NCBI GenBank assembly: GCA_034620365.1 | Contig: JAQGEQ010000225.1 | Span: forward strand, 372,001 to 436,000 | Direction of reading: 5' to 3' | From: Pegea sp. RAD2-039 | Lineage: Eukaryota; Chordata; Thaliacea; Salpida; Salpidae | DNA: 64,000 bases | In this document: piece by piece, positions 5,325 through 57,100 of the stretch | Layout of the letters: each line of letters opens with the position of its first letter | Position numbering within the stretch: the stretch's first letter is position 1 | Translations under genes and position numbers: made by a program | Notes under the pieces: generated by a model | The model's database searches: none | Seen by the model: only the letters and a program-made list of their open reading frames with translations | What the model was told of the DNA's origin: nothing

Positions 5325-6795
5325 ATGAAGATCAATTACATCTTTAAATCTTTCTTCTTCTTCAATATTGCCCTGGAAACCTTAGAAATCACTCCCAAAT
5401 CTTCTCGGAGCTCTATGACATCACACAAGTCACATCCTTATAACGTCATGACTTCAACTTCGTGTTACTCCTGGCAACAAAAACCTTCATCAGTTTTTTA
5501 CGATTGTCACATCCCCTTAGCTCCCCATTCAAGTCCCATCAACATCTCGCATCCTTCACTCACTTACGGACTTCTTTATGACGTCACAACGCAGTGGGGC
5601 GTGCCCTCAACAACAACTGAATTAGTGTTGAATCGTCAAGGTATCTCTCAGGTTGAAGTGGACGCCTTTCAAACTGGACCACAGTCCCTGGTCACACTTG
5701 ACTTGGCCCACAACACTATCAGCTACGTTGCAGTTGGCGCATTTCGAGGTTGGTAACATCTACGTTGCTATGACGTCACGTGATGACGTCTTCTTCTCCA
5801 CAGGACTTGAACTGCTGCAGAATCTTGATATGTCTTTTAATAAGCTCCAAATTTTACCTTCTTGCTCCTTTGTGACCCTCACTAGGCTTCAGACACTGTT
5901 GTTGCGTAGCAACGAACTGGTGTCGATACAACGCGATTTATTGGTCGGTCTGACGTCACTGACACTCATTGATGTCTCTTCTAATCATCTCACGGATCTC
6001 GCACCGGATGTCTTCCGTGTCATGACCGCGTCACAAAGCATCGCGATCAACGTACGTCATAATCGCCTTATAAACCCGGATGTTGGTTGGTTGTCATTGG
6101 AGATTTCTTCTAATCTTCAACATAGCTGTGGCAGCGGGGAAATTACCGGATGTGAAAATTGCACGAGACATCAGCTTCCGGTGCATCTCTTATGGAGTGA
6201 AGGGAACCCTTGGTGCTGTTCGTGTCATCTGCTAGCGCGTTTTATAACGCGGTTGCACGATTTAGAAAGTGGTGGGGCGTGTTGGAACAGCGCTAACTGC
6301 TCGATTTTACGCGATTCTTCGGGAAGCTGTGTTCGGGGAATCACCTTACCCTGTAGCTACCCTTCTCGCTTTATCGGAATTAATTTAGCGTCCGCCCCCC
6401 AAGTCGTCAACTCGTTCTGGTCCATTTGCTGCGATAGTACCGATAATATCGGGAGCGTTTGCTTACCTGGCGGGGTTTGGAGTAACTTTTCCCGGTCAAG
6501 TAGTTGTCAGTTTGTCCAAAATTGGAAGAAAAATACAACAAGATCGTGCAAGCTCAACGAGAGGTACAAAAACGCGGAAAAAAGCTTTGATAATCGAGCG
6601 ACTCTTATTGGCATCTTTATTGTGATCGCGATCCCAGTTTTATTAACCTTGTTGCCTAGCTGCGACCGCGAGGACAAAAGAACAGAACATTTGTTATCGG
6701 GGGCTTCTATGATTGGGGTTACTATAGCTCATCATACAGTTTCAAACAACAGTTCCACTAATGTCCCTGCCTCTGGTGATGCGAATATCGAATGA
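5325..6795 (+). CDS. Leucine-rich-repeat type I membrane protein, 2 exons, 471 aa
   Basis: Exons 5325-5748 and 5804-6795 are joined across a 55-bp intron with a weak donor (GTTGGT); the join restores the LRR run GAFRG-LELLQNLDMSFNKL and keeps the frame. The N-terminal 90 residues are poorly conserved, with a hydrophobic F-rich stretch that could be a weak signal peptide. About four to five LRRs follow (xLxLxxNxIxxxxxxxF), then a Cys-rich LRRCT-like cap (EGNPWCCSCHLLARF) and a second Cys-rich segment. A transmembrane helix (IGIFIVIAIPVLLTLLP) lies at about residues 408-426, then a cytoplasmic tail of about 45 residues. Likely a surface LRR receptor or adhesion protein; the ortholog is not recognised. 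The second exon is clearly GC-richer than its flanks and contains TGACGTCA palindromes, as does the intron. AATAAA is at 6869. Confidence 0.75.
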
Positions 6796-8109
6796 AAATG
6801 AAGATTTAGAAAAATGAACTTTTATTGAAAAAAGAATTCATAAAACCTACTTCTAATTGAACTCTTGAAATAAACGAGTAAAATTAGATAATAAATATTT
6901 GTTTAGTGCAATTTAAAGTTTGAAAATATGAACATGGTTCATTTCAAAAAGAGTTTTTGAACTTCAAACAAGTTACTGAAAGTTGTAAGAGTTTGTTTTC
7001 GAATCAAAAAATAAAATTTGCTTAAATTTGTTGCCTGTTAGCTTAACAAGAACTTTAATTTGTAAAATAAACGATGTTAAGTTAGCTCAGCCGACAACAG
7101 CCCCACAAAAACTCCATTTAAGACTTCTTGTAAAACATCAATATCCATTAAAAACTTATCTTTGTTCAAGCTATATTTTAAGCATGCTAAATAAATAAAT
7201 CGATTTTTTGTGTTATTTTCAAATGAAACTTTTTTATCAACAAGTTGAGTCTTTATCAAACTTTTATGGACTTCTGCAGAATTGGAAATCTTTCAAATTT
7301 TGTAACTTGAAAAGGATTTTAATTTTAGACAGAAGATAAATTTACTGTATTTTCATCAGTAGCTTAAAACGTTTTCCTATAATAACTCCAAGATGTTTCA
7401 ACAAAGTAATAATAGCGGGTTAATTTAAAATAAAGTGAATACCTTCCATAAAATCGGTGAGTTTATGACTTCACAAAATCAGGGTTACAAAGTACTTTTT
7501 TAAAATTATGAATTATAAAAGATTTTGTTGTTATGGAAGCTTTAGATAAATTATTTAAAAAGTAATTAAATTTGATAAACGAAAAAATACTTTAAGTGTA
7601 GCTTAGAATTGAAAACTTAAGATATTTTGCAAGATTATTTTATAGTGTAATATCATCTACAACTGTATTAGCAAGACAAGAAAAAGAATTTATTAATAAA
7701 AAATTAAAGTAACATAGTAAGATATTTTGAGTTTCAATGAATTCATTCTTTAGTTTGAGTTTTACAAATTCAAACATGACATAGTTTTAACTTTTCAAAA
7801 CTTTCAATTTTGCTTTGAGCAATTAAGCCAAGGTAATAATTAACTTTATGTAATGATTGTTTTATGTAAATTTGATCGTCAACTTTACAAAATGTTTTTT
7901 AAGTAATTAAAGTATAGCTTGATAAATAAATTTTTAATAAGAAAGTTAAAATAGGTTTTTTATTTTACTTTTCATTATGCAAGTTGACATCACTTTCAAT
8001 TTGGATTTAGAAAACTTTTGAGCATTTTGGTTGAGTACCATTAGCAGTTCTTTTTTTAGTTTGGTTGTTGAGAAATATATGAACCAAATTTTTTGAATTT
8101 ATCTTCTGG
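6796..8109. other. AT-rich intergenic DNA after the LRR gene
   Basis: Holds the LRR poly(A) signal near 6869. A 60-codon minus-strand frame at 7077-7259 has no recognisable features. Nothing else is supported. Confidence 0.5.
6869..6874 (+). terminator. Poly(A) signal of the LRR gene
   Basis: AATAAA 74 bp after the LRR stop codon; the first canonical hexamer downstream of the gene. Confidence 0.5.
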
Positions 8110-9628: not shown

Positions 9629-9850
9629 ATGATTGAGATCACTTGTAATGATCGTTTGGGCAAAAAAGTCCGAGTAAAATGCAATGAGGAAGACACCATT
9701 GGTGATTTGAAGAAACTAGTTGCTGCACAGACTGGGACAAGATATGACAAAATTGTTTTGAAGAAGTGGTACACTATCTTTAAAGATCATATCACTTTAA
9801 GAGATTATGAAGTTAGAGACGGAATGAATTTGGAACTTTACTATCAATAA
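9629..9850 (+). CDS. UBL5: Ubiquitin-like protein 5 (Hub1)
   Basis: A single-exon 73-aa protein, exactly the family length. It has the invariant stretches [41 protein letters not shown] and the C-terminal Tyr-Tyr (ELYYQ). UBL5/Hub1 binds spliceosomal proteins non-covalently and influences 5' splice-site choice; it also acts in the mitochondrial unfolded protein response in nematodes. It ends in Tyr-Tyr-Gln rather than Gly-Gly, as the family does. The gene starts 15 bp after a splice acceptor and is followed only 82 bp later by the inferred SLX1 start, as expected of the first gene of an operon. Its stop codon lies within an AATAAA (9846-9851). Confidence 0.97.
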
Positions 9851-9851
9851 A
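9846..9851 (+). terminator. AATAAA overlapping the UBL5 stop codon
   Basis: The TAA stop (9848-9850) is inside the hexamer. It is the only canonical hexamer between UBL5 and the SLX1 acceptor at 9930, so if UBL5 mRNA is made from a polycistronic precursor its 3' UTR must be under about 80 nt. Confidence 0.45.
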
Positions 9852-9910
9852 CTCATTTTGTTCTTTACATATTTCTTATTAAAATTATTGAGATATTTTA
9901 ATGTAAATTT

Positions 9911-10803: not shown

Positions 10804-12048
10804 ATGAATATTGAAACTGATTCTGATCTTCCAGCTTGGGGCGTCCTGTACCCTCAATCTTCTCATTTCTCTTTCGTTGAATTCACCAAAACTGGATACA
10901 GCTTCGGGCGCGCGACCACCTGTGACGTCATCTTTGACTCAAACCGTCTGAACTGTTACAGTCAGTACAGTAAGCTTCACTTCACCGTCCATCGTCGATG
11001 TGATGAAAGCACCGGACGCTATGACGTCATCATCACCGATTTATCACGAAATGGCGTCTATGTCGATGAAATAAGGATCCCGAAAAAGACCCCTTTTCGC
11101 TTAAAATCCAACGTCATTATCAGTTTGTGTGACGTCACACGTCGCGCGTTTCATTTTGTCGACTTACAATCGCATATCGATGACGTCATCTTTCCGGCTG
11201 TCATGACCGACAAGTACCGGTCAGGTGAATTGTTGGGGTCCGGGGCATTTGGACGAGTGTACCTGGCGTACTCGGCCCAATTAAAATGTCGATGTGCAGT
11301 GAAGCGTGTAAAGCACACCGGAAGCGCGCGCGTTAAGTTTGAGGCGAGTATTTTGACCCAAATTCGTCATGTGAACATCATCGGGGTCTTAGACATCTAC
11401 GAGGTTCCCGACGCCGTTTTTATGGTTCTTGAATACGCTGATGGAGGCGATCTTCTCGAATTCGTGACGTCACGACGTCCATTTTCCGACCTACGCGCGA
11501 AGTTTGTCGCTACTCAACTCTTGTCAGCGATTCGCTACTTACACGGATGTGACGTCACTCATCGCGACGTCAAGCTCGAGAATATGTTAGCGATGACGCG
11601 AAACGAGTTTAGTGTCATCAAGTTGACAGATTTCGGGTTGTCACGTGTCATCGACGACGCGTCGCTCATGACAACGCTCGCTGGTAGTCCGTTGTATGCT
11701 GCACCGGAAATTGTCACCGGTTTCCAGGGCAACCCAGTTTCATATACGAGTAAAGTAGATCTTTGGGGATTGGGTGTGTCCCTGTTTGCTCTTCTTTCAA
11801 CCACCTTCCCGTTTCATCCTGATCGTAGTGACGTCACCATGACTTTAGACAATCAAATCCTGACCGGAAATTGGACCTTCGACGGCAAGTGGGATCGCAC
11901 AAGTCCCGAGTCTCGAGATTTCGTTTCTAAGCTGCTAGTAGTCAACTCCCATCGTCGACTTTCAGCATCAGAAGCGCTTAGACACTCGTGGTTCGATGAC
12001 GTCACACTGTTCGAGGTGCTCAACAAATTTACGCCTCAAACACTTTGA
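10804..12048 (+). CDS. CHEK2: CHK2-type checkpoint kinase (FHA + Ser/Thr kinase), 414 aa, intronless
   Basis: An FHA domain at about residues 30-120 shows FGRATTCD, YSKLHF and DLSRNGVYV, matching CHK2's phosphothreonine-binding fold. The kinase domain at about 138-400 has the glycine loop GSGAFGRVYLA, Lys167 in CAVKR, HRDVKLEN (253-260), DFG (276-278) and an activation segment LMTTLAGSPLYAAPE. The first activation Thr of human CHK2 (T383) is kept; the second (T387) is Ser. The N-terminal SQ/TQ cluster and the C-terminal basic tail of vertebrate CHK2 are missing, so it is shorter (414 against 543 aa). As a CHK2 it would act downstream of ATM in DNA-damage arrest. The CDS is GC-richer than UBL5 and SLX1 and carries eight TGACGTCA palindromes. 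The last residues and the stop lie in the first unit of a 57-bp repeat. Confidence 0.9.
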   Translation: MNIETDSDLPAWGVLYPQSSHFSFVEFTKTGYSFGRATTCDVIFDSNRLNCYSQYSKLHFTVHRRCDESTGRYDVIITDLSRNGVYVDEIRIPKKTPFRLKSNVIISLCDVTRRAFHFVDLQSHIDDVIFPAVMTDKYRSGELLGSGAFGRVYLAYSAQLKCRCAVKRVKHTGSARVKFEASILTQIRHVNIIGVLDIYEVPDAVFMVLEYADGGDLLEFVTSRRPFSDLRAKFVATQLLSAIRYLHGCDVTHRDVKLENMLAMTRNEFSVIKLTDFGLSRVIDDASLMTTLAGSPLYAAPEIVTGFQGNPVSYTSKVDLWGLGVSLFALLSTTFPFHPDRSDVTMTLDNQILTGNWTFDGKWDRTSPESRDFVSKLLVVNSHRRLSASEALRHSWFDDVTLFEVLNKFTPQTL

Positions 12049-12262
12049 TGACGTCATTAATTTTCGTTTGTTTTAATGACGTCGTCATCGCCTTAAACAG
12101 TTTAATGACGTCATCAATTTTCGTTTTTTTTAATGACGTCATCATCGCCTCAAACACTTTAATGACGTCATCAATTTTCGTTTGTTTTAATGACGTCATC
12201 ATCGCCTTAAACACTTTAATGACGTCATCAATTTTCGTTTGTTTTTATGACCTCATCATCGC
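12033..12262 (+). repeat. 57-bp dimeric minisatellite, about four units
   Basis: Units begin at about 12033, 12090, 12147 and 12204, with a decayed end at 12261, giving a constant 57-bp period. Each unit is itself two related half-units of about 28-29 bp, each centred on TGACGTCAT: one followed by CAATTTTCGTTTGTTTTAA, the other by CATCGCCTTAAACACTTTAA. The first unit covers the last six kinase codons and its TGA stop. Because 57 is a multiple of three, both strands stay open through the array; those frames are not genes. Confidence 0.95.
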
Positions 12263-12351
12263 TTTATACTCGCGACTACCTCCCAACTTTTGTCATCTCT
12301 TCATCTTCATCACTGTAAGATTTCGTTTTCCAGTTTTATCATGTTTCATTA

Positions 12352-17305: not shown

Positions 17306-17499
17306 AAGAAGTTTTTTTAGCTTAAAATCTTATTTTCTAAAAAACAGGAAAATTTGTAGAATTTTTAATTTTTTTTTAATTTCCAACTGTCATGAAACAC
17401 GTAAAGCGATGACGTCATCAAGAGGCATCTGGCAAGCATCATCGATCAGTTCACGTCATCGTATTTGCTGACGTCATCACCAGCTCTCATCACTTGGCA

Positions 17500-17687
17500 A
17501 TGTTCCAACAAGCTACTTCAAGCGCAGTAGAAAAGCGACGCGCAGTGACATCATCACTGACGTCACAAAATACGTTTAGGACCAATTCAAATCGTGCAGA
17601 AGGACTTCACGTCATATCTAGATCATCTTCACTCTTGCGTATTCGTCCTGCACATGCAATGACGTCAGTAATGACGTCATCAGCCAG
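17500..17687 (+). CDS. Probable first coding exon of the 17.5-20.5 kb gene
   Basis: ATG at 17500, 62 codons (MFQQATSSAVEKRRAVTSSL and onward), rich in Ser, Thr and Arg, ending at a strong donor CAG|GTAAG (17688). GC-richer than the flanks, with four TGACGTCA sites in or near it. It ends in phase 2. I could not find the next exon in matching phase: a segment after 18023 has an acceptor (TTTATAG) and an open Ala/Leu/Glu frame, but in another phase. Its link to the exons at 18.9-20.5 kb therefore rests on strand, proximity and composition only. Confidence 0.4.
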
Positions 17688-18935
17688 GTAAGATTCGAAT
17701 CTTTCAAATGCTAGTTACTATAGAAACCGATTTAATCGCGCGGATTTTGTTGCTGCCGAGTATTGTTTATTTAGTTGCTAGTAGCAACAGCCTTGATTCA
17801 TGAATATTTAATCATAATTTTTGTTTGGTCACCAACATCATCGTCCACCAACGACGATTTGAAAGTGGCCCGGTTGCCTAGCAACTTACTCGATTCATCA
17901 CAACTGACAGAGTTCACTAATCTGGGGGAATCCCCTCGATCGATAACCTTTTCAATGGGATTGTTCAGAAGCGTGACGTCATATGATCTGGTGTTGCGAG
18001 TGGTTGTTTACTTTGTTTATAGGAACAGATCAATCATCTGCTGCTGCTGCGAAGTTAGAAGAAGTTTTGGAAAGTTGTGTAAAAAGTGAAAAAATACATT
18101 TTAGTTTGCTCTCTTGTGGTAGAGTCCTTAGCATTTAGAGCTTGTATCCAAACGTTCAGATTCTTCATCATTACTTTTCATTGAATGACGTCACTGTGAC
18201 GTATGCAGAGGAGTTTAGAAGACTTAATTACAAAAACTTTTTAAAGAGTTTTTAGTTTAGATGATTTTTTTAGAATTAGATAAATAGAAAGTAAAGGAAG
18301 ATGATTTTGTTGAGTTGAAGTGATGTTTTGTTTTTCTATATTCTTTACAACATCTGTTTCAAATGAATCAACAAACATAGAATCAATTACCAATTAAGTC
18401 CAAAGCCATGAATAATTTATCAAGAAGTAAAATTCTTTTTTAATGCTAAACTAATTACTTAATTACCCCAACCAACAATTCACAAACTTCTAAAGATTCG
18501 AATTGTTCAACTGTTTTTACCGATTCAAAAAAACTCCAAACAAATTGAAAAGAACCAAAAGTTGTCGAATTTAAAACAGATTAAAGTAATTTAACTATTT
18601 TACTCAATAAATCAATGTTAAAAAGCTTAGTAGGCAATTTTACATTTCAATTTCTAACTATTTATTCAAAATTGAACTTTATAAGCTCTTTGTAAAGATC
18701 AATAAGTCTTGAAGGATTCACAGATCTATTAATTACAAATTACTGTCAGCTGGTCATACTGTTGCTGGTTAAAAGAACTTTCAAAGTCAGTTGCCTAGAT
18801 ACAGTTGCTTAGTTACAGATGGTTATCATCAGCTAATTGGTGATGTCGAAAAACGCGAGCTGTCGGTAAGCAGAAGCAGAAAATCAATAAAATTTTCAAA
18901 TTTACAAAAAAAATTTCATCTGGGAATAACTGCAG
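17688..18935 (+). other. Between the possible first exon and the main exons; one possible coding segment
   Basis: After an acceptor at 18021-18022 a frame reads about 33 codons (DQSSAAAAKLEEVLES and onward), which looks coding. The preceding stretch 17820-18000 (Ser/Asp-rich in one frame) is also less AT-rich. Phases do not link these to 17500-17687, so I leave them as possible exons. From 18100 to 18900 the DNA is AT-rich without features, except for one TGACGTCA near 18185. Confidence 0.35.
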
Positions 18936-20503
18936 GGAGCCGCGACAACTTCTAAAGACACGTCACGCCGACATTGATCATCTAGTGTGTCGCTCACAGA
19001 CGATCAGAAGTCGCCCGACGAGACTCGAACGAGAGGAGCATCGAAACCTACGTCTCGAGCACTGGTATGGAATCCCTGATGACCCCCGTGGAAGTTACCC
19101 GCCATTAAGGTCGTTCTGCAGCTCCCTAGCAACGTCTGGTAATGATCACAGGACGTTGACGTCACCTAGTGACGTAAAAAGGACGCGAAAGTTAGTCTGG
19201 AAGCCAATGTCACCTTCTACCTCATCAAAACTCGAAGAATCCTTTTCACGCTGCTCCAGTCGTCATGGTAACATGACGTCATACAGCAGAGTGAAAGAGA
19301 CTATTAAACTACGAGGTGACGTGGCAAGGAGCCAGAACGGTTTCCATGACAACCAATTGGTGCTGTTGTACGATTGTGGTTGCCATGGTTGTGCCGCTTA
19401 CGTGAAGCTAGTTGAAGAGCGACGCCGTAGAGGTGACCAACTGTCCCGGCTTGAAAGAGGATGTTTCCGGGTCGTACCCACGGTCGAACGACCCGCACCA
19501 CAGAAGGACCCTCCTAAGGACAAGTTCACGCAAACGTCAGTGTCGTGTAACTCCAGGTCAGGTGATGTGGTTGGGACTTTGTGACCCTGAACTGGTTGTT
19601 GTAGTTGGGCTGAAATCTTCTTCAGCTGCTTCCGTTGCGGAAGATCAAATGACACAGAGAGTCTGAGTTCTGCCGGATCAGATAGTGATGTGGATGCAGA
19701 CGGAGACGGATCAGGTGAATCAGGTTTGTGTCCCAACCTTCAAGATCTAATTTCATTTTAATCTAAAACTTTAAAAACTTTAAAAACTCTATTTGCGCTC
19801 TTTAAAAAGGTCCCGCTGGATTTCATCTTTAGAAGCTTCACGGGGCTCCTTAAGACCCTCTAAATTACTAGCACTCCTTAAAGATCTCTGTGACGTCACG
19901 TGACTCCTAGAAAACTTTCTCTTCTCTGTGTTTGATATTAGTTTCCATGCAAACCAGCATCATTCAAAAATCGATCTTCAAATTATCGACTGATTCACTG
20001 TGACGTCATACAGATGACCTCGAAGAGCACGAAGGCGAGATGAGCGTTGATGAGGACTCTGGAGGAGGTGATGACGCAGCTAGTGATGAAGGAAGTTTAA
20101 ATAGCGCCGAAGCGATTGAAGGCGACGGAAACCAGCTGGAAAATAGGTCGGTGTGACGTCATTGATGTCCACTGCAACCAGTTGTTGTCATAGAAACGGA
20201 ACCACTGAAGCGGATGGTGATGATGGAGACGGAGGGTCGTGTTGCTCCGATGGGTCGGACTCTTTGACGGAGTTACGCGCGCGTTTTGCGTTTTCACGAC
20301 GTCATCTGCTCGCGCGGAAATCCAACTATTCATCGCGACTTCAAACAGTGAGAGGAGGACGATCGACGCGAACTTGTCGCGGTTTCGGCGTCGATGACGA
20401 TGATGACGTAGATGACAGTGCAACTGAAGATCTTGAAGAAAGTGCAGAAGTAGATGAAGATGACTCTCTTGCTGAATTCGCGATGCTTGACGACGATGGT
20501 TGA
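18936..20503 (+). CDS. Unidentified gene, four linked exons, acidic Ser/Asp-rich C-terminus
   Basis: Exons 18936-19556, 19626-19714, 20014-20146 and 20182-20503 join in consistent phases to a TGA at 20501-20503, giving at least about 385 aa. The first exon is basic and Arg-rich, with RLEREEHRNLRLEHWYGIP and a short Cys motif CGCHGCAAYVKLVEERRRRG. The next two are Ser/Asp/Glu-rich (SSAGSDSDVDADGDGS, GEMSVDEDSGGGDDAAS). The last has Cys pairs (SCCSDGSDSLTELRARFAF), a basic patch and a strongly acidic end (VDDDDDVDDSATEDLEES). No family is recognised; low complexity and the acidic/basic alternation suggest a nuclear or scaffold protein, which is inference. The intron between the last two exons would be only 35 bp. 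About eleven TGACGTCA sites lie in the 17.4-20.2 kb region. AATAAA is at 20619. Confidence 0.6.
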
Positions 20504-25992: not shown

Positions 25993-26505
25993 TTAGTCTT
26001 GCCACTTAAAACCACTGTTATCGACCCCATTCAAGTATTCAAACTGGACCAGATCTTGATTGTTCAAACTGCTACGCAGAGGTGGTCGCCCCAATTGGTT
26101 GACCGCGACCCAAGACTCATTTAGGGGTCGCTTCTTCTTGCGAAGACTGCTTCTTATCGATGAGTAGGCTCTTTGAAATGCAGTTTTTTGAAAATCAACC
26201 TCTTTGTTGTGAGAAAACTTGATTAATCTGTTAAGAAATAATGACGTAAGCGCGATGACGTCACAATCGAACGCGATGAAGTACTTCTCGCTTCTGGTTA
26301 TTGATCTGCCATGACCAGGAGATGACCCAGAGTCACAAATAGTCCCATAATCATTTGAATACTTGATAGGGTGATTATTGCTGCTGTTGTTGATATTTTC
26401 GAACGGAATCTGTTGAATAAAAGATGAGCTAGAAGAAGATACCACTAGAAGGCGTATTTGCAAGCAAATTAGTCGGCAGAAGCACTCACGCTTATTGGTG
26501 AACAT
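25993..26505 (-). CDS. Unidentified 170-aa protein, directly downstream of Munc18
   Basis: An open frame from ATG at 26505 to TAA at 25993, GC-richer than its flanks and not low-complexity overall. It starts with a Cys/Leu-rich stretch (MFTNKRECFCRLICLQ), then a Ser/Asn-rich linker (NINNSSNNH), then a more ordered half with AFQRAYSSIRSSLRKKKRPL, SWVAVNQLGRPPLRSS and FEYLNGVDNSGFKW. No family is recognised. A splice acceptor (TGCAATAG) ends 6 bp before the ATG and only 53 bp separate it from the Munc18 stop. Two readings fit: second gene of an operon, or an alternative C-terminal exon of Munc18, since two phase-0 donor candidates (CAG|GTG) in the last Munc18 exon would join it in frame. Confidence 0.6.
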   Translation of the reverse strand: MFTNKRECFCRLICLQIRLLVVSSSSSSFIQQIPFENINNSSNNHPIKYSNDYGTICDSGSSPGHGRSITRSEKYFIAFDCDVIALTSLFLNRLIKFSHNKEVDFQKTAFQRAYSSIRSSLRKKKRPLNESWVAVNQLGRPPLRSSLNNQDLVQFEYLNGVDNSGFKWQD

Positions 26506-29500: not shown

Positions 29501-30715
29501 ACAAGTGGTTAGTGGACAAGTAGTTGGTGGACAAATTGATGTTATTTATGGAATCATCAAAGTTTTAACTATCATAAACCACAAAAACATAACAAAATCG
29601 GAAATGACGTCATAATGCAGATAGCGGTGAGTATTTGAAAAGATGCTGTTAATTAAAAGTTCAAAGAATTTGGTTACCTTGAAAGCGTTCAGCTTGTTTT
29701 GTAGAAACTGAGCTAAAATCATAGAGTTCTCCCCTTCTCTACATATAACAGGTCACAAAATGATGATGTGAGTTGGTGAAGGACTTACTGGCGATATCTG
29801 ATTGCAGGGTACTCGCCCAGGGTGGCACACACTGTTGATAATTGCTCTGCGATCCGTTCTAGCACTCGCTCGCGTTTATTGATATGATCAGGACTGTATA
29901 TGGCTTCAAATGAATTTTGACAATCCAAAGAAAAAATCTGGCAGATAAATATTGGAGGTTAGTAATCAATAATAAGTTGAAAGTTACTTGTGATTCATAA
30001 GGGAGAAATGCGATGTTGACTTCTTTCAATGTTTTGATGTATTTAGTGATTTTACTCTGTCCAAGTAACTTGAATAGTGATTCTGGACAACCTATAACAT
30101 TTGCATAAAATCTTTTTGTAGAAATACAAAAAATAATTTGATTTTATCAACATTTACTTCTAAATTTTTTAATCTATTAAATAATTTTGGAATTTACTGT
30201 CAGTGAAATAGATGTGAACATATTTATATTTTCTATCCACATTAAAATCCTCGATAATTCTATCAATTGATTCCTTAGTTGGTGTAATGAAATAAATAAC
30301 TTCAAATGTTGGCATTGGTTGTCTGTTCTTTGATAAGTCTTCAACCACTAAAACATAAAAGTAGCTCTTGTATATGTTTGTAAAAGAAGATTTGATCTTA
30401 CAAAAGATCTAAACTACTAGATTAGCCATAACATGAACAGAAATAGGATTAAAAATTGTAATTAGTAGATTCACTTACAAGTGATTCCTTTATCTATTAC
30501 ATCTTTCATCTTACAGCACGAAGACATAATCCTTACACTCAATCTATCCAGAACAAGGATCTATAATGATTCAATATTTCATTGAAGTAAAGATAGAAAA
30601 ACTTTTTCAAGTTTTCATTGGATTTAAAAACATGAAATTATTTTGAAGTTAGAAAATACCTTCCATTTCGAAGAGGATGTTATCTTGTTCTGGTGAATTA
30701 TGTCCTCCATAATTT
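26565..30715 (-). CDS. STXBP1: Munc18/STXBP1-like Sec1 family protein, 13 exons, N-terminal exon missing
   Basis: An SM protein that clasps syntaxin and templates SNARE assembly in vesicle exocytosis. Exons on the minus strand: 30715-30660, 30560-30479, 30347-30198, 30091-29988, 29937-29789, 29738-29678, 28393-28239, 28187-28080, 28027-27681, 27630-27518, 27470-27289, 27237-27080 and 26692-26565. All phases agree and give 596 aa. Only about the first 10-15 residues of the 594-aa vertebrate protein are not found. Recognisable blocks: [33 protein letters not shown] with [79 protein letters not shown] and the final [11 protein letters not shown]. Closest to neuronal STXBP1/2 rather than STXBP3. 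The C-terminus runs about 25 residues past the usual end. Most introns are 50-60 bp; one of 1.28 kb holds a minisatellite. Confidence 0.95.
28397..29535 (+). repeat. 15-bp G-rich minisatellite in a Munc18 intron, about 75 units
   Basis: Tandem units of GTGGTTGGTGGACAG with common variants GTAGTTGGTGGACAA, GTGGTTAAAGGACAA and GTGGTTGGTGGATAA fill nearly the whole intron between the exons at 29678 and 28393. Higher-order 30- and 45-bp patterns repeat inside it. The plus strand is G-rich with regular GG pairs; the gene is transcribed from the other direction, so the G-rich strand is the template and the pre-mRNA is C-rich (CTGTCCACCAACCAC). The period is a multiple of three, so long frames of VVGGQ and of STNHL type are open on either strand; these are not proteins. 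Confidence 0.97.
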
Positions 30716-36400: not shown

Positions 36401-39400
36401 TAAATTTGCAAAATAAAACAATTGATTTATTTTTACAAAAAAGAGATAATGTTACATCAAGATGAAAAACTTCTTGTTACTATGATTATTATCAAATTGT
36501 TATTGTTGTAACCATGAAATTGCAAATGTGCTCAACTCAAAAATGTTTTTGTTTATTGAAATTTCTCGAAAGTTTTTTAAATTATGCTGGTTCAATTGGA
36601 ATTAGAATAATCCCAATTTTAGCTCATAAATAAATAATATTATGTGAAGAGCACAGACGCCTAATGTATTTCAAATTACTGATAAATTATCTTTAAAAAA
36701 TATTAAAACCTTATAAAGTATCAAAGGTAAAATTTAAACAAACAAATAAATTTTTTTGTCATTATTTAAACACAAATGGTTTCCAATTTATTAAATAATT
36801 AATTAATCAAATTATAATATTATCTACTAATAACTTTTTATCTTTAGATAAATATAATTTTTGAGAAAATTCATCTTTACTGGTTTAGTCTTCCTAAGAT
36901 GTACTTATGAACAGATGTTAGTTTTTTTGCTAAACTTTAAAAGCTACATAATCAGATAAACTCCTAAATTGTTCTTAAACTTTCAATGACACAATTTTAC
37001 AAAAAAAAATTTGTTTTGTGGTTCACATTTTCAATGATTTCTTTAAATTTTAGAAATCAAATAAAATTCAGTAAAAAAAGTTACCTTCAATAATTAGTTA
37101 ATTAGTTAGTCTTAATTTAGTTAAACGTAATTTTTCTAGAGGTAACACTTGTTTTTTATAATTACGTTTGTTAAAAACTAATTTTTTATAATTAAAAGAG
37201 TTTTCAACAACAAAAGCTCAACATTTTTTGTAATTTATTTTAATTTAATCTTCATAATCACAAACCATTATTCAGGGATTTTTCAATCAAAGTCAAATTG
37301 TGAAAGCGCCAATTTCGTGGTATATAAATTATATTTTTATACATCTTATATTGAATGCCAAAAAATCACCGATTTTAATTAATTTGCGAATCCAGAAGAA
37401 TAAATTAATTTTGAAGAAAGATGTATGACATCACATGATTAAAAAGATTTGAGATTAAAATTTATTTCTTAAATTATTTCTAATCTTTTCATTTCACTTT
37501 TACAGTAAATATTCTTCCATAAAACTGAACAGAATTTGAAGTCTTTAAAGTTTTAAGCTTTTTATAAACTTGATAAATATTTATACCTGTGCAGAAGATT
37601 ATATTAACATTTTGGCTTTTTAACACAATGAAATAAATTTTATTTACAAATTAAATAAAGATACTCTATAATTAAATAAATTAAAGAGTAAAGAACCAGA
37701 AGTTATTACCGCATATTTGTAATGAACTTTTTTCTAATTCTTATTTAAACATACCCTGTGAAAGTTTATATGTAGAATAAATATTGAAAAAGAATGATAT
37801 AAAGTAGAACAAGAACAAAAGAGCGAGTTGTATTTGAATATTGTATGCATGACAAGTAACAGATGGTTATTTGTGTGTGTGGTTTTCTATGCTTTGTTAT
37901 TTTAATGCTATTGTTTGCATAATGTCTATTTATTTATATGTTGTATGCCTTTCTCATAGAAATTTTAAATATTTTTTTTCTATTTTCTTCTACTTAATAA
38001 TATTTTGAATTTTCATCAAAAACTTTATTTTTATCAAGTTGAGGATAAAATTAATAAAAATTGTAAATTGCTTCAAGTATAAAGAACTTTACGAATAATT
38101 TTTAGATTAAACTTTGTATAAAAATGTCTTTTAATCATTTTAAATTTGTTAAATTGTGATACTTAAGACCTTTTTATTATATTTCAGCTCATATTGTTCG
38201 CTATAAGAGCTGTAGAATTTGTCACTCGCAGCCATGTGTTGAATAAATAAATATCCCATAATTTATTAAATAAATCAAATTACAAATGAAATTATATATA
38301 AAATTATGATATCTTCAAAAATATATATTCAAAATTTGGAAATGTTTTTTAGAAGTAAAGCTTTTAGATAGTTTAAAAAAGTCTTATACTGTTGATAAAT
38401 ATCTTCATCTTTTGATTGGAGATTTGAGGGAGATTTTCATTGATGATGTCAATCTTGAAGTTTCAAAGTTTAATAAAATTTCCACTAAAATTACATTTTT
38501 GAAAGGGTGGAAATTTTGAAAGTTTTTTCTAGTAGTCTCTTGGCGGTGTTGACGTCACTGTTACTTAAAAGCGAGTTTATGCATTAAAGTTGGTGAAAGT
38601 TCTTAAAGAGATGAAGATAAGATTAATCTGATAAAGCTGTTTAGATGGGTTACACTTTCAAAGAATAAATTGGAGAGAGTAAAAAGCTATAATCAAAACT
38701 TTACTGTTTCATTAAAACTGTTAAATTGTAAAATATATTTATTAAAATGCAAATTAAAAGTTTATTTCAATCAAAATAACCGACAGGAAACCGAGTTTGG
38801 GTATTTACTTTATGCCAGGCGAGGCTGAAAAATGACCGTTGGTCTCATTATATTAAATTTTTAGTTTGCTTTCAGTTTTTTGTGGCTTAAAAAACTCTAT
38901 TCAAAGATTTTCGAAAATTTGAAACTGGCCTTTTTGCTTCCTTAATGTGTTTTGACAAGAATATTCTAAAATTTGATTAATTAAAAAAATATGTTTCTTC
39001 ACACTTTGAAAAGACAAAAAAAAGTTGCTAACCAAACTCTGCTAGTTCTTAAACTTATTTTTACATTTTATCAAAGATTTAAAATTTGCATCTCTTATAA
39101 ATCTCTTAAAATAGATTGTTATGACTCACAATAAAACTTAAAAAAAAATCAGATAGATCTTATAAGTTTTAATAAACTTGACTTATTGTTCTTTAACTCA
39201 TTCTAGTGATAAAATCGTTTACAGCCTGCTTATATCTGTATAAGATCGATTATAACTAAAACTATAAAAACGTTTTTCGTTATAAAGTAACTTTTTTTCT
39301 AATCAATCATTTTTACTAAGAGATAAAACAGAACCTGATCATACATCATTTATTGTCTAAATTTTGATTAAATTTTCTTGTAATGTATAATTATAGACAG

Positions 39401-43668: not shown

Positions 43669-43856
43669 ATGACGTCACTGAGTCGAGAAAACTCAACTAA
43701 AAGCACATTGTCGTCAAAGTCTGCCTCTAGTCATGCTTTAATAATTTTGATTCAAGTTCGTTTTTTCTTTAAATTGCCCGACCTGCCAAGCAAACCACCC
43801 AGGCGGACAATTTGGCGTTTTACAAATTGTACTTATTACTTACAACCAATTGTGAG
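43669..43856 (+). CDS. Possible 5' exon of teneurin
   Basis: ATG at 43669 opens MTSLSRENSTKSTLSSKSAS, similar in style to the SSRENSALTLTDSD segment of vertebrate teneurin intracellular domains, and the frame runs to a good donor (GAG|GTAACA) at 43857. An acceptor (CAACTCTTAG) lies 8 bp before the ATG. The phase at this donor does not fit the next recognised exon (45150), although an internal weaker donor (CAA|GTTCGT) would. Membership in teneurin is therefore uncertain. Confidence 0.35.
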
Positions 43857-45149: not shown

Positions 45150-48100
45150 AACAAGACTACATCAGTTGAATTATGCATGAGGGAGCTGACATCACGTGAC
45201 ACATGCAATAATGAGTCACGTGATATTGAGGAGTCAAACCATAGAAGAGACCCAAGGACAGCTCGAAGTGATAGCGCTGATTCTGGTCATTTTACGGCCC
45301 CTAAATCACTTGTACCTGATTCGTCTCCTTCAGGTAAGTCCTGATTTGTTGATATTAATGATTAAACATTTTTGGGTTAAAAGTTTGGGTGTTTTATCCG
45401 GTTAAAAACTTGATTTTTTAAAGTATTTTTCGGGGTTATTTGACATTGAAAAGAACTTTTTGTAGAATTTGAAGAACGAATGTTTAAAAGTCGACAAATT
45501 TTCATGCTTATTAGCCGACCCGCAAATAACAGAAAAACTTTATTGTTTTCATCAAATAATATTTCAATTCTGTTTCTTTAAGTTTGAAAATTAATCAATT
45601 TTTCAGAGTATTTCTTCTATTTAAGCTAATTGCAAAATTTTCACTTCACGAGTGTATTGAAATTGATTAATATTTTAACTCTAAGATGCTTTAATTTTTA
45701 TTCTTTTAAAAATATTTTCAACATTTGCTGATATTGACAATTTAAAATTGATAGTTTAACTTAATTACCTTCTAATTCTTTAACTTTCTTTATCTAATTA
45801 AAAATATATTTTATCAAATTGATTTTTTCAAGTCAAATAACATTGATAGAAAACTTATTCTTGAACCTGTAAACTTTCTAACTTCAAAGACCTTTAAGTT
45901 CTATTGTGATAAAACTCAAATGTTATTGTGATAACTGACTTACAGAACCAGATACTAAAATCACTAATGTTTGTTGGTTTTGTAGTTTTGAAAGTTCTTT
46001 AAAAGGACAAGTAGCAATCTTCAAAACTTTTGTAATTGCATTTGAAGAATTATTTTAGTTTTTTTCTTTACATGTTGATTATAACATCACTTCAATCTAT
46101 CAGTAACTAAATCGGAATGAACGAGCTATAAAGTATTTGTTTGAAAAATTAAATTGTTTGTAGTTTTTTTTCATTAAACATTGCGTCTTGAAACTCAAAA
46201 GTTATTTTAGCTTTTAGGGTGTTTTCATTTAGTATCAAGGAATTTGTTTTTCAATAAAAGGTTTAGAACTCATTTTCAACCTTGATTAAATTTTAAGAAG
46301 GTGTGACAATATAGACGTAAGCTTTTAGAATCTTAAGATTTGATCTTAATTTTTTACAAATAAAATTCTAATTAAAGTAATTTGAATTTAATCACTGAAT
46401 CTATCTTTTTTAACTCTTTTTCATTTAGAATCACTAATAAGTGATTGAAAATTTGTTTGTATCTTTAGCATGACTTAGAGATTATTCACTTCAGATAGTC
46501 TCTAAACTAAAAGTTTTGATAAAGTATTAGAAGTATTTTGAAGCTACAGTATTTTAAGCTTATGATGTTTTAGTTGCTTGATGTGATTACAAGACATATT
46601 TGTTATTAATACAAGAAATTTTTTCAACAGTTAGTCTAAATTGAAACATTTTATCCACCTTAAAACGTAGAAAATACTTTTAAAATCAAGTTAGCAAAAA
46701 AGCAGCAGTGTTTAATCGATCTTTTTCTATTTCGAAATTCCATTCTTACATTAGTGTTGCCTGATTTTCACAATCTGAAGTTTTACTGATGTTGCAACAC
46801 CTTCTAACCATTCCGACAAATATTTATTGAGTTTGCTTATCTAACCAAAACAAGCTAACCTTCAAAGACTTACTTTAAGTCAATTTTGAGCTAGAAGTGT
46901 TAACATTTTAACAATAGATTTTCGTTATATTTGCCATAAACATATTTTTGTATTGATGTTCTTTCTGTTGTAAGCTGACAAAGCAAAATCAAATATAATT
47001 GTTAAGTGGTAACTTGCAAAATTTTACAAACATTAGATTCATCAAATAAAGCTTGAATCAGTGTTTGCAAATGATCGGAAATTCACTTTAGTTTGTTTGT
47101 GCTTTCACCAGTGTCTCATCTTCATCTTTCTTTAGTGAATCTTTAACAAGATCTTAATTATCGTGTTGCTTTAGCAACAATGAGTTACTATAAGCTAGAA
47201 AAACTTGTAGAACTTAAACAAATTACTGTCTCTTATAAGCAGTAGACTGTTTAGTTTTTCCATTTAGAAAGATAAAGATTTAAAAGTAAGATTTTATTAA
47301 AATCTTCCTCATTCAAATTGATCTACAATTTTTAAAAAGAATCTTACAAAGTGTGAAAATACTTCGACAAAATGTAAACAGAGAAAGTTAGAAAGTTTGC
47401 TAACCACTCATCTTATTTGGAAAAGATGCAGCAGACAATGGCGCCATTAATCAAACAATATCCAATCAGATTCAATTAGAATTTAATGAAGTTTTATTGA
47501 ACGTTTTTGGCGTTTATCATTCTTGAAATTTATTTTTTTAAAGTCATGATAAGAATAATTTTAATGAAAGGTTTTCTTCATCTTCAGAAGACACTTAATA
47601 TCTTGTCGGGACGGATTTGATGATGAATAGTTCTTATGTAAATCGGTTGTTTTGAAATCTTTCAAAACCCCTTTTTATCCAAATTGCTTAAATAGAAAAT
47701 CATTGAAGCGGAACAACAAGTCAACTGGAACATTTTTGTTTTCAGGAGACGACAAAATTTCCTCGTACGCGTCTGCTAACCGGCAAGGCACTATTAGAAG
47801 CGTCAATGACGTCATCAGATCGAATGAGCGACCGAGTGGAAGCAGCGTGTTGTCTTTCCACGCGTGTAAAGGTGTTTTGGACAGCGAAAAATATCTCAGT
47901 ACAGCTTCAGATAAAGCGGCTGACAACGAGGTTGCTATGACAACAGAATGGTTGCTACTACGCCAACTAAAATCGAATTATTTCGCTTAAATCTCATTTT
48001 ATGAACTTTTTACCACCTGGTGACGACAGAGAGTAATTTTTTTAAATTTTCACTTCTCAGGTGCGCGAAATTTTTCTGCCGACTTTATCGCCTCTCATTC

Positions 48101-51100
48101 CCGCCAACGAGCTGAAAAAACCCGAAGAGACGCAAAATAAACATCCACGGTGTAAGGCTCAAAGTAGACGCAGCAAACAGCTCCACCAAGTGGCGGAAAC
48201 GATAAATTCGCGCGCATATGACGTGTCATCGGAGGAATACGCAGATCTCGCCCCACATCAAAAGAAAAGTCTTTTGGGTTGGCAAGGTAAGATGACGTCA
48301 TCGGCTGTTAAAATGATTGGTTGCTTCAAACTCGCGGCGTAGTAATGACGTCAGCAAGACTAGTGGCGTGAGTAAATAGCGATATACTAGTGACGTCATC
48401 AATCGCGCGATGTACGTCACTCAACACCATGTCAAAGTGTCTTCCTTTTAAAGAGCGTCGATGACGTCATAAGGGGATTTTCTTGACATCAACAATTTGT
48501 TGATCAGGTCTCAGATCAAAAAGATCAATGATGACGTCATCATCGTTCACAGCTATTCTTGCTGTGACGTCATCAAAGTTTATTGAAAACAGAAAAATGA
48601 TTTTTTTGAGAAAGAAAGTGGCGACCACCAAAAGAGAAAAGTTAATTATCGAAGTTTCGATGACGTCATATAAATAAATAAATTCTTCGTCACCTAGCAA
48701 CAAGACCTTGAAGTGTAGGTACTAATATTATATTTACGAAAAGCTTTTAATCATCAGAATTAATCACCAAAAATGAACATAAAGATTTAATTCTTCTAAG
48801 CAGTGAGCCGATGTCTTAAGAGGAGAATTGATTAGATTATTTGATATCGGAGCGATTATTTGTTGAGAGTAATTTTGTTGAATTGTTAGCAAGAAATTAT
48901 TATTTGCCGTTTTTTTTATATATAGTTGAAAGCAGAAAATTTAATCGTTTTGTTAAATGTTTTGTAACAAACTAAAAAGTTTTCAAGATAAGCTGCTGTT
49001 AACAAAAATGAAGTCTTCATCTTCTAAAATAAAATCTGATCAAAATTAAAAACTTTATTAATTTTTTTGTATCACATTTTAATAACAGTAGTTAAATGAT
49101 ATTAACCAAAGGTGCCTAGCACCAGCTGTCTTATTAACTTCTCTTATCTAATTTTTTAAGCTTAATTACGCACCGAGTCGAAGAAATCACATTACTGTAG
49201 CTATTTGTGAGTCTTTGGGTCAATATTTAAGCAAGTGTGTTACTTACATATACACAAGTGACATTTTAGTGAGTTTTGAATGCTAATAATCAGTGCGAGT
49301 AAACTTTATTATTATTTCAGCCGTGTTTTGTATCTTTAAATTTAAATGAAATCGTGACTATAAAGTTTAAATATAAAGTTTGATAATAACTTTTATTTTA
49401 TGGTATTATATATTTGTTGTGTTCTTAGGAAAGATTTTAGATGAATTATCTTATAATCTGTTAATAAATAGAAGATTTTCAAACAGAACGTCGACAGAAA
49501 TTTTGGAATTATTTTAATTTAAATTAAACTAATTGACATTTGAAATAAAATCGAAGACAAAATGCTTCCTCTTATAATATACCAAATATTTAATTTGTTA
49601 GTAGCGGTTATTTCATCGTAAAAACGATAAATAAAGTCGAGCTGTTTATTAAAGATTGAAAAGATTTAATCCTTCAATTTAGTAAATAAAAATCTTTAAA
49701 CTTATTTTTATAAAAGATTAAATATTTCTTCATTTGAAAAACATCTTTGGTATTATTTACATCTTAAATTATTTACCTCAGATTGAATTTAATGTATCAT
49801 TTTATGAAATCTTTTAGGTTTGATCGAAATGACATTATGGTTGAAATAAAGTTTATTTAAATAAGTCTGTTTATCATAATTTCATCTATGTTCTGACACA
49901 GGTGGCTTTATATAAAATGAGACGTTTATCTGCAATTTTTTACAAACGTTTATATCTATTTCTAAGAAGCTATTTTATAAATATGTAGCAATAATGTTAA
50001 CTGAAAGTCTTATGAAATTGAATAGCAGAAACATCTAAGCTTGAATTAGTAAAATATAAGATAAAAAGTCAGATGAAATCTGAAAAAAGATTTCCATCAA
50101 AAATTTTGTTACTAAAAATAAAATTAAAATTGAAAAAGAAGATTTCAATGAAAATCGAACATTACCAATTTTTTTTACAAAATCTTTTGGGGATTTCAGT
50201 TCAATATTTCGATAGTAAGCTCTACATTAGAGTCTTTAAGATATTTTACAATCAGTTTTTTTCAATATTGAGGTTAACATCAGACAAGAACAGGAAGAAA
50301 TCTTTATTTAGTCGATCGATCAGAGCCTGTAGTTTGACTTTTTTTATATGTTTAGTTTGTACAATTATTTATTCAGTTGAACAAATTAAAAAAGTATTGA
50401 TATAAATCATCTCTTAGAGAGTAATTTAAGCTGAATCTTCGAAATTTGTTTATATAAACAAACAAATCATTTTTACACTGAATCATATAATGGTTTGTGA
50501 TAATTAAGGCCATTAAAATTAATGGTTTCAACATATAAAGCAAAAGCTGTCAGTAAAGATGAGGTTAACAACGAATAACATTTCTATGTCTGTTGGTTCC
50601 ATACAAGCTTGGAACTGTGATTTTATAATTTCTAAATTTATTAGGCTCAAAACTGAGCATAGAAAATCGATGTTATAGAAGACTATTAAACGCAGAAAAG
50701 AACAAATTGTTTTGTGAGGTATGCTAGATTGGTTTACATAAGTAATCTTTAGCCTTCAAAGATTTATTAGCAAAATGACAAGTAAAAGAGGAATTTTTCT
50801 TCTAGCTACCTCTTTACGTTTCTTTCATCTTATAAGATAATTTTAAGACCACTTGAAGATATATATCTCCTTTTAAATAGTTAAATAAAGTGTTGGAGCC
50901 AAATTGGAAAAGAACAATTTGGAACACAAGTTTTATTTTTTGTGATGAAGCAAGCTTAAGTTTTAGCTGCTTATATTTTATCCAGTTTTCTATTTGAAGG
51001 TTGAAAACAAGCTAAAGTTACTAATGCTATCAATATTGATATGGTGATTTCGGTAAGAGAGAAAACTTTATTAATAATGTATTCAGTCACGCTATCAAAT

Positions 51101-54100: not shown

Positions 54101-57100
54101 GAAGTCCATTGTTTGTTTCATCGTCAACTGTTGTGTCACTCCATATGAAGTTTAATCAATGTTTTTAATTTAGAAAGTTGTGTAAACGTAAGCTACCCAC
54201 AACCAATCACTCCATCAATATCATCTGGTTATTTAATTAATTTAATCCCAAATACAAAGATCTTATCAAATCTTCTTCAAGATCTTCTTAAACTAACTTT
54301 TCAAGTCTCTACTTTTCTCTTCTAGATTATCTCAAGGTAAGATGGCGCCGCGTGTGACGTCACAACCGCTTAAGCTGCGTTGTCGACGCGGTTACCGCTC
54401 GCTGCTGTCATAGTGATCGCTAGTTAATTGTAAATCACGTGATCAGTGAAGCAGCTAGAGATTCAATTGTGATCTTAGATCGAAGAAACCTCGATCTTTC
54501 ATTCAAAAGATTCTTCATTTAAATCTTTACATCAATCTGGACAGTGGATTAGGACCGGTGTACATCAACCAGTCGTTTCTGACCAATTAAAAATCCTCAA
54601 ATTTTAAACTGCTAGATGATTGATCTAGTTGGCGTTGCTAGGCAGCTATTGAAGCGTCACTTGCGTTCGGGAAGCAGTGACGATGCAATTTCAATCTCAA
54701 CTACCATCACCTGAACAACCAGCCCTATCAACAAAGCATTTATGACGTCTTCAAGCGCTCTTCTATCCAGAGCTGTTAAAAGTGATGATGACGTCATCGA
54801 CGGATATTGCGCGCTGTTCGCCGCTGGCTTCGTTCAAGCCGCGATTTGATTGATGCTTTTTATTATGCCAGTGTAAACATGATGACGTCATCAATAGCTT
54901 CTTAGTCAGCGCGCGGTGAATTCATGGAAAGTTTTAGATGATGACTTCATTGCCCACAAAGGTTGTTTCGATGAACAAGTCGATAACAACAACAAGTTGG
55001 TAACAATAACAATAACAGGAGGATAACAAAAATAACAACAAGTGGATAACAAAAACAAGAAGATAACAACAACAATAACAATAAAATGTAAACAATCTTC
55101 TTTTCGAATAATTTTTTTTGAAGATCTGAAGAAACTTTTTATAATTTCAATTCTCTCACACAATGCACGATGACGTCATTGATACACTGAACGTGATGAC
55201 GTCATCAGAACAGTATTTGAGGCAAATTAATTGAAAGATAAGACAGTGAAAGAGCTTAGTGCTAGTAATTAAATTTCTTCGATTCTAATTTTCCACTTGA
55301 TATTGGTCAAATGTCAATCAAAACGCGTCGATGACGTCATCGTTGGCGCGGCAGCGGGCTTCGACTCGAAAAATTCTGACTACAAAAGCTGTCACTTTCA
55401 TTCACGTGACTTGTGTGAAAGGTGGTTGATGGTGATGAGGAGGAACTAGCTCTTTTAAAAGATGAGATTTAGTTGATGGTTTGCGTAAGATGTTGATATC
55501 AAAGCATCTTGGAGTAAATCTTCATCTTTCAGCAGATCAATCATTTATTAGATTGATTTCAATCAAGCATTTTCTACCATGATTAAACTCGGAGCAACTT
55601 CACAAATATCTTTAGGAGTTATTCGAGAGATTTTAGAAAAAGAGGCAGACTTGGCCAGAAAAAAGTAAAAGTTTGCAAGCTCTTGAAAAACTTGCCGCTG
55701 TATGCTAGAATAAAACAGTTCTAATGAAGTTTTTTGTATCTCTAGTGATTAGTTTGTAAGTAAAGTTGTTTTTTGTTGCTGTGTTTCCAAACTAGTTTTA
55801 ATAATTTGTCTTGAAGTGATGCTTTAATAGGTTTAATGTTTCCAATTATACTTTTATAAAATTGCATTTAAAGTTTTTTAAACCACAAAAAATAGTCAAA
55901 TTCAATAAATTGAAGCAGAAATCACCTTTTTTTTGGTGTTCACTGAATTTCTAAAGGTTTTTAAGTTTTAGAAAGCAAACTAAACAATTTTTAAGACTGT
56001 ACTCGAGTAAGATAAACGTCTGACTGAGTTTAAGATAACAAAGCCGGTGAAGTCTTTATAATTCTCCAGTAAAAAAATAGCAACTTTTAATAAAAATCTT
56101 TAAAATGTTCGCAAGTTCAGTAATTGAAGTAATTTCTGATAAATTTTATGAAACGTGTTTAGGGTTTGTATCGATTTATTTTTTTATTGGAAAGGAAATA
56201 GTTTTAGTTTAAGATCAGATTGAACTTTTAAACAATTTATTTTCTTGAATATAAAAGTTGAATGTAACAGATTTACGAGATTTAAAGATTTCTTTTTTTA
56301 CAAAGCCCATTAAAATATTTTTATTGAAAGCTTTTAGAATAAGTTCAATTTTAATAAACAATTTTATTGACTATTTTGAAGTAATAATTTTTAAATTAAG
56401 CGTTTTTCTTTTGTAACGATTAACCAAATAATCTCATATAATTTTAGTGTAATTAGCACCTATCATTATAATAATCTTCAAATTATTTACAACCTTCAAG
56501 AAAGTAACTCATTTTTTCTAATCTTTTTTTAAATCTCTAACAAACAATAAAGAATACTTTAAGCTTGTTGTAAAATATCAGATTGTAGTTTGTTTATACT
56601 TAAGTATATTTTAATTGAATAAATTTATTTCAATCTAAACTTGTATTAAATACGTCATTTTTCAATCTTAAGTAATTTAATTTGATTATATTCTTCAATT
56701 TAAATATAAGTCGTAATTGATGAATATTAATAATAAATATAAATAACTTTTTGTTAGTCTCCTGAAAGATTACAAAGATACAACTAAGTTCAAAAGATAT
56801 TTTTAATAACTTTTAGAAAGTCATACTTGCATATTTCAATTAGTTTCTAATTTTAACTGCTTTTAAAAAAATTTGAGTCAATTTTAAAGCCAAGTTATTG
56901 AAATTCTGTAGGTGTCTTTCTAACCTTTCCTTTATGTTTGGCTCTTTGCTAGCAGAAGTGAATCTGCGTTAAACATTACAATAATTAAATTTTCTACTGG
57001 CATCTCTCCATATTGTGAGCAAATTAGTAGATGGATGCAAGCGGACTTCAAACTGAGAAAAACTGACGGCCACCCAGGGAACTAACCTCTTTTCCAATAA

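Follow-up and report, generated by a model that had tools for sequence, protein, structure and literature searches.

A cAMP response element octamer highly iterated across a Pegea genome and possibly maintained by weak selection

Introduction

The stretch of DNA considered here, 64,000 nt of contig JAQGEQ010000225.1 from the salp Pegea sp. RAD2-039 (GenBank assembly GCA_034620365.1, positions 372,001 to 436,000 of the forward strand; hereafter the window), harbours 48 exact copies of the palindromic octamer TGACGTCA, the consensus cAMP response element (CRE), between positions 5579 and 55339. This raises the question of what could bring so many copies of a single word into one region, and what might keep them there. 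As set out below, the excess is confirmed as real and genome-wide, the copies seem neither to have been inserted nor to be decaying neutrally, and the word may be a highly iterated palindrome (HIP) held in place by weak selection through a dimeric bZIP protein.

Excess of the octamer in the window and the genome

Dinucleotide shuffles of the window (n = 100) returned a mean of 0.48 copies of TGACGTCA and a maximum of 3, which bears out the roughly 100-fold excess claimed by a sequence-only reading of this DNA. Markov models of order 0-2 fitted to the window predict 0.45-0.65 copies, whilst those of order 3-6, whose sub-word counts are raised by the word itself, predict from 3.7 to 46. TGACGTCA is also the commonest palindrome with four G or C bases in the window, with 48 copies against 11 for the runner-up, TCACGTGA.

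Across the assembly (105,744,746 bases in 387 contigs) there are 27,792 copies, or 1 per 3.8 kb, whilst the reversed word, of identical composition, occurs 969 times (a 29-fold difference). Markov models of orders 2 and 3, fitted to 17 stretches of 10 kb sampled from the genome (L019-L035), give expectations of 387 and 711, respectively, corresponding to a 39- to 72-fold excess. Neither outcome that the sequence-only reading had set against its own claim was found: the excess extends beyond the window, which is ~2.9-fold denser than the genome mean, and the genome-wide Markov expectation does not approach the observed count. In this gross over-representation of a palindromic word throughout a genome, TGACGTCA behaves as a HIP. 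The pattern ATGACGTCATCA is similarly skewed, with 9,629 occurrences on both strands against 64 for its reversed form.

Comparison with words of matched composition gives the same picture. Amongst the 2,520 octamers with two of each base, TGACGTCA ranks first with 67 copies in 234 kb; the 1,034 control words of this composition with one CpG average 1.0 copy, and the highest of them (44 copies) is a shifted part of the TGACGTCA motif itself. Only three of 95 other palindromes with four G or C bases exceed their expectation more than four-fold, namely TCACGTGA (22 vs 1.4), GTCATGAC (6 vs 1.5) and ACGTACGT (5 vs 0.4). Genome-wide, TCACGTGA numbers 4,614 against 237 for its reversed form, so that the description of a single enriched word holds for TGACGTCA but has to be widened to a second palindrome. 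No enrichment is seen for 14 other ACGT palindromes (summed observed/expected ratio, O/E, 1.1), and the hybrid TGACGTGA shows no clear enrichment (7 observed vs ~2.8 expected over five GC classes).

Flanking bases and the fate of the copies

Read outwards from TGACGTCA, the adjoining base is T in 209, C in 112, G in 15 and A in 8 of 344 flanks, placing a purine (R) before the word and a pyrimidine (Y) after it. Beyond this R/Y pair the flanks prefer C and then A, giving the extended form TGRTGACGTCAYCA, and sharing between copies ends about 3-4 bases out. Left and right flanks are statistically independent, as they would be for a dimer. The flanked form ATGACGTCAT, noted earlier as frequent, is indeed present, but a class flanked by G...C exists as well. 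TCACGTGA obeys the R/Y rule in 70 of 74 flanks, 16 of which come from one 24-bp array. For the flank analyses the overlapping loci L004, L009, L015, L016 and L018 were dropped and five tandem arrays were masked; L001-L008 had been fetched through the pattern ATGACGTCATCA, which biases the original flank counts, and L036-L038, chosen for density, are included in the flank, GC-class and hybrid counts.

These flanks offer a means of distinguishing maintenance from decay, as under neutral decay the one-mismatch descendants of a copy would inherit them. The R/Y share is 93 % at 170 intact sites and 48 % at 26 sites of TGATGTCA, the main expected decay product (P 3e-14), with 38 % at 30 other sites that have lost the CpG and 47 % at 972 two-mismatch sites; the 58 one-mismatch sites that retain the CpG are intermediate (64 %). 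When the flank-fetched loci and one duplicate are left out, the shares become 93.6 % (149 intact sites), 45.5 % (22 TGATGTCA sites), 35 % (27 other CpG-lost sites), 47 % (880 two-mismatch sites) and 64 % (55 CpG-retaining sites), and the window and L019-L035 alone give 90 % at 61 intact and 47 % at 19 TGATGTCA sites. At most about one-third of TGATGTCA sites are former copies by this measure, and our estimate of near-copies is ~21 per 170 intact sites, or up to ~43 at the upper confidence limits; by our own derivation, a neutral stationary population should hold more near-copies than copies. Judged from their flanks, the copies do not seem to be a neutrally decaying population.

Counts of near-words are less telling. 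The one-mismatch words total 37,125 genome-wide, against 27,699 reversed controls, and together reach 1.6-2.2 times their Markov expectation, vs 39-72 times for TGACGTCA. Neighbours differing at positions 1/8 number 3,063 (5,199 reversed), at positions 2/7 9,103 (8,117 reversed) and at positions 3/6 3,680 (3,379 reversed), whilst TGATGTCA occurs 11,070 times against 2,673. The excess of the one-mismatch words amounts to ~0.5-0.7 of that of the core, compared with the ~1.14 that we derive for neutral decay; this deficit is weak, and the argument for maintenance therefore rests on the flank test. A difference between word positions in a small-sample one-mismatch spectrum was not borne out genome-wide.

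Repeated DNA provides two further comparisons. Five tandem arrays, found by similarity to the array in the window, carry TGACGTCA; those at L013, L014, L017 and L011 are 27-30 bp minisatellites on four contigs with the word in nearly every unit. In two arrays of fixed period the core differs at 2/104 and 2/320 bases and the spacers at 43/286 and 63/760, respectively. For L011, L014 and the window array the units were chosen through the word itself, and they are left out of the evidence. In the L017 array an open frame encodes the repeat D-D-V-T-E-S-E-K-V, and protein constraint may help to keep the word there.

The second comparison concerns fragments on contig C107 of the CHK2-like kinase described below, which carry a frameshift and stops yet retain both copies shared with the window gene at 77-79 % identity (hypergeometric P 0.012-0.019). 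Being 95 % alike, the two fragments are treated as a single observation; the DNA similarity search that recovered them is biased towards conserved stretches. They lie at L010 1501-1647 and L012 1501-1649, in a duplicated 1.4-kb block. Other duplicates, at 94-95 % identity, keep 3/3 copies but are uninformative, and one such pair was fetched via the motif.

Positions of the copies and their mode of gain

The copies in the window, and those of the second palindrome, are located as follows.

5579-5958, LRR gene region (from reading frames and an LRR_8 Pfam match): three copies, at 5579 (in an overlapping upstream frame of the gene, less sure), 5771 (5771-5783 overlaps TCACGTGA) and 5951 (within the Pfam-matched LRR stretch)
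10804-12048, + strand, single-exon coding sequence of a CHK2-like kinase: eight copies over 10923-12004, at 10923, 11022, 11130, 11181, 11465, 11550, 11829 and 11997
12032-12266, minisatellite of period 57 (two half-units of 28-29 bp): six exact copies, at 12049, 12106, 12134, 12163, 12191 and 12220, and one-mismatch copies at 12077 and 12248
17410-18193, cluster of seven copies: 17410, 17469, 17558, 17660, 17672, 17974 and 18186
19157-20161, cluster of five copies: 19157, 19274, 19891, 20001 and 20154
26256-26263, isolated TGACGTCA
28015-28022, copy in a Munc18 exon, codons V-T-S
29605-29612, isolated TGACGTCA
38550-38557, isolated TGACGTCA
43670-43677, isolated TGACGTCA
47807-48668, cluster of eight copies: 47807, 48293, 48346, 48391, 48462, 48532, 48565 and 48661
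54355-55339, cluster of six copies: 54355, 54789, 54883, 55171, 55197 and 55332
2695-63649, eleven copies of TCACGTGA: 2695, 5776, 19896, 28051, 40414, 45192, 45216, 54435, 55402, 58632 and 63642

The kinase gene is the most informative with regard to how copies arise. All of its copies are in frame, seven reading D-V and one T-S, and in an alignment to human CHK2 none of the eight has a gap inside the motif codons. Three (11130, 11465 and 11550, the last directly preceding the catalytic H-R-D) are surrounded by clean sequence without gaps; a further four have a gap no more than ~3 residues away, and one lies at the alignment end. At copy 28015, the human Munc18 counterpart of V-T-S is one that we take to read V-T-R. 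Gain by substitution is thus indicated in one gene, by the eight kinase copies, three of them in clean stretches, and TGACGTCA occurs in coding and non-coding DNA alike; both are features of HIPs. Insertion with shared flanks, as expected of a short mobile element, is not seen, and from these alignments the copies do not seem to be insertions. The spreading short sequence that the sequence-only reading had offered as one possibility is disfavoured: the coding copies are in frame with no gap inside them, and flanks are not shared over any length, although some copies do stand in tandem arrays.

Distribution of the copies

Within the window, 46 of the 48 copies fall into six islands covering 17 kb in total, which were drawn from the GC table with the copy positions already known. 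Four AT-rich stretches named beforehand as nearly devoid of the word contain 0 copies. Eleven or twelve of the 48 lie in recognised coding sequence (eight kinase, two LRR, one Munc18 and the less certain 5579) and six in the minisatellite near 12 kb. The claim that the word ignores gene boundaries stands in so far as copies occur in coding sequence, in the minisatellite and elsewhere, but their density tracks GC content.

This relationship is apparent beyond the window. O/E rises from 11 below 25 % GC to 129-144 from 35 % GC upwards (the three loci chosen for density are part of this set), and bins of at least 40 % GC in the same set hold 1 copy per 340 bp. The sampled stretches alone follow the same trend, with 0 copies in 30 bins below 20 % GC and 11 per 10 kb, or 1 per 900 bp, at 40 % GC or more (9 bins, 5 sites). 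The GC content of islands bearing TGACGTCA decays over ~1 kb.

The copies are, in addition, strongly clustered. In the first 1.54 Mb of contig C1, a sparse region, 29 of 99 neighbouring gaps are shorter than 500 bp, against 3.1 expected, and 6 are shorter than 50 bp. The sampled stretches (17 of 20 requested at fixed, hand-picked offsets, three being out of range) hold 19 copies in 170 kb, or 1 per 8.9 kb, with at least one copy in 10 of the 17; one of them, L022, covers a dense run already seen, and the other 16 hold 15 copies. The genome mean is 2.4-fold this density, indicating that dense clusters or arrays contribute much. Helical phasing was considered and rejected, as no 10-11 bp period stands out clearly amongst the distances of up to 200 bp between pairs of copies; truncation of the range makes the value at 147 unreliable.

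A palindrome possibly maintained by weak selection

The explanation we favour, at a confidence that stops a little short of an even chance, is that TGACGTCA, in its extended form, is a HIP maintained by weak selection via a bZIP reader. Copies would arise by substitution and then be retained by a weak force. The reader would be a bZIP dimer of the CREB/ATF class that recognises the intact pair of half-sites in the chromatin of the germline. The advantage of a site that is intact would be very small, though higher in GC-rich gene islands; at mutation-drift equilibrium, such an advantage could be enough to raise the octamer tens of fold. The likeliest source would be weak selection in favour of binding spread over many sites, through which chromatin with genes stays open or licensed; this is our first choice by analogy with the PATCs discussed below.

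Several observations are consistent with this. The exact double half-site, the independent flanks and the consensus RTGACGTCAY together fit a dimeric reader best, probably a bZIP dimer of CREB/ATF type. L040 contains a CREB-like bZIP exon, and the bZIP profile PF00170 has 12 matches in the genome; these we take to resemble CREB, JUN, C/EBP and ATF3/FOS, the CREB-type name coming from the translated exon. A canonical octamer and a CREB-type bZIP gene thus occur together, whilst enrichment is not shared by the weaker variant TGATGTCA. In a reversible model of mutation and drift, the enrichment of the core relative to that of the one-mismatch words would correspond to a scaled advantage of 3.2-3.5 genome-wide, a strength at which a weak uniform force suffices and strong selection per site is unneeded. 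Codon bias and GC-biased conversion are forces of similarly weak size.

A number of points weigh against this explanation. By counts alone a deamination halo exists around TGACGTCA, TGATGTCA reaching 4.1 times its reversed control and 1.9-2.9 times its Markov expectation and the one-mismatch total 1.3 times its reversed control; it is the flank test alone, on 26 TGATGTCA sites, that argues against such a halo. Weaker CRE variants gain little, a sharper dependence than graded transcription-factor binding predicts, and the E-box palindrome follows the R/Y rule too, which a bZIP reader alone does not explain. The amino-acid changes at the kinase motifs suit a drive as well as selection. The estimated strength may be too high if many copies are array units, and the Fisher tests on arrays assume an independence of units that does not hold.

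Alternative explanations

Foremost amongst the alternatives, although we regard it as doubtful, is a word-specific drive of repair or conversion towards TGACGTCA, in which, as proposed for HIP1, an enzyme that modifies or binds DNA and recognises the palindrome or its ACGT core biases mismatch repair or the resolution of heteroduplexes, and no benefit to the host is needed. The sharp specificity for one palindrome, the ACGT core shared by TGACGTCA and TCACGTGA, the coding copies with an amino-acid change and the climb of O/E with GC would all suit it, and seven long-frame copies of a C5 methylase, in two groups on four contigs, are candidate enzymes; the 14 other ACGT palindromes, at a summed O/E of 1.1, do not. 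To our knowledge there is no eukaryotic precedent for such a drive. In its fullest form, which we hold to be equally doubtful, this would be a eukaryotic HIP in which an enzyme- or bZIP-dependent drive rewrites the genome to TGACGTCA and TCACGTGA, in GC-rich islands even at the expense of protein sequence. If so, the 27,792 copies would not be a set of regulatory sites but would mark where a selfish or mechanistic bias has come to equilibrium. Elhai's model of HIPs would, in the excerpted text of PMC4390886, yield words of this kind.

With regard to the methylases themselves, the long frames encode 832-873 aa, three on C57/C249 and four on C32/C52 (grouped by score). Further matches are partial in a 603-aa frame on C262 and split on C49. 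The copies are possibly genes of mobile elements.

A role as a meiotic landmark appears improbable. Here CREs would set hotspots, as M26 does through Atf1-Pcr1 in S. pombe, or would aid pairing of homologues; they would be kept for crossover placement, and the GC islands would be a footprint of conversion. The location of copies in GC-rich islands with GC decaying over ~1 kb would accord with this, as would the use of both palindromes as minisatellite units; in L013 a 24-bp array built of TCACGTGA adjoins a TGACGTCA array. Hotspot alleles, however, are normally lost through conversion, the opposite of the pattern seen. Preceded by A, TGACGTCA contains ATGACGT, the M26 heptamer, but a CRE in ade6 is neither bound nor active, and in an unpublished view of the same authors not all CREs are active (excerpts of PMC9775316).

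It is more improbable still that these are ordinary regulatory CREs, in enhancers and promoters of a CREB-rich network. The exact consensus, the presence of bZIP genes and the R/Y flanks, which CREB/ATF proteins favour, would be expected of such elements; roughly 28,000 sites, of which 11-12 of the 48 in the window are coding and six lie in a minisatellite, would not, nor would the background flanks of the weaker but functional variant TGATGTCA. The earlier remark that this density argues against ordinary enhancers is likely right.

We attach very little probability to a spreading insertion, be it a micro-transposon or a minisatellite seed, followed by decay. Five tandem arrays do carry the word, and the 2.4-fold difference between the genome mean and the sampled stretches suggests that arrays or clusters hold many copies, but flank sharing stops at ~4 bases, the kinase motif codons contain no gap, flank-bearing derivatives are few and only 6 of the 99 gaps in the sparse start of C1 are below 50 bp. 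Finally, an artefact of composition or CpG content, to which the preference of the copies for GC-rich, CpG-normal DNA might point, is refuted by the matched control palindromes and by the 1,034 one-CpG words (average 1 vs 67).

Comparison with known systems

Iterated palindromes are a cyanobacterial puzzle, with selection and repair bias both under debate as causes, and the closest known kind to the TGACGTCA system is HIP1 (GCGATCGC) together with the alternate HIPs of that group. HIP1 is spread over coding and non-coding DNA. Differences lie in the host, a 105.7-Mb genome with animal-type genes, in the word, which is a CRE, in the density, on average 1 copy per 3.8 kb, and in the proposed reader, a bZIP dimer. 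The resemblance is that of a palindromic octamer iterated at high genome-wide frequency (excerpt of PMC4390886). An animal with the best-studied bZIP site iterated tens of fold would allow both explanations to be tested, and the repeated D-V and T-S pairs would show a DNA word shaping protein sequence.

Ordinary cAMP response elements share the identical octamer and the R...Y flanks; unlike them, TGACGTCA occurs in coding sequence and satellites, and as the exact word only. In mammals, orthologous CREs that differ most often read TGATGTCA (excerpt of PMC1796609), whereas here TGATGTCA shows no inherited flank. The S. pombe M26/CRE hotspot shares ATGACGT and is read by an ATF/CREB dimer (excerpt of PMC9775316), but was shown by genetics, whereas the likeness of TGACGTCA is one of sequence. 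The Periodic An/Tn Clusters (PATCs) of C. elegans are likewise a pervasive DNA signal, covering 6-10 % of the genome and helping germline transgene expression (excerpt of PMC7725773), although they consist of periodic AT runs in non-coding DNA with no exact palindrome. Amongst the literature matches listed, whose coverage lies mostly outside subscription papers, there was no report of a CRE iterated in this way in an animal. A fluorescence in situ hybridization probe for a satellite in eliminated DNA of Caenorhabditis auriculariae contains TGACGTCATCA (excerpt of PMC13370393). The bZIP and UBL5-like proteins of the present genome do not look like those of nematodes, and a search for COX1 gave no match.

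Other repeats

Overlapping words such as AACCAGTT and CTAACAAC occur ~150-195 times in the 170 kb of L019-L035, and probably belong to one repeat. The window itself also harbours, at 28416-29534, a strongly G-skewed 15-bp minisatellite of ~76 units.

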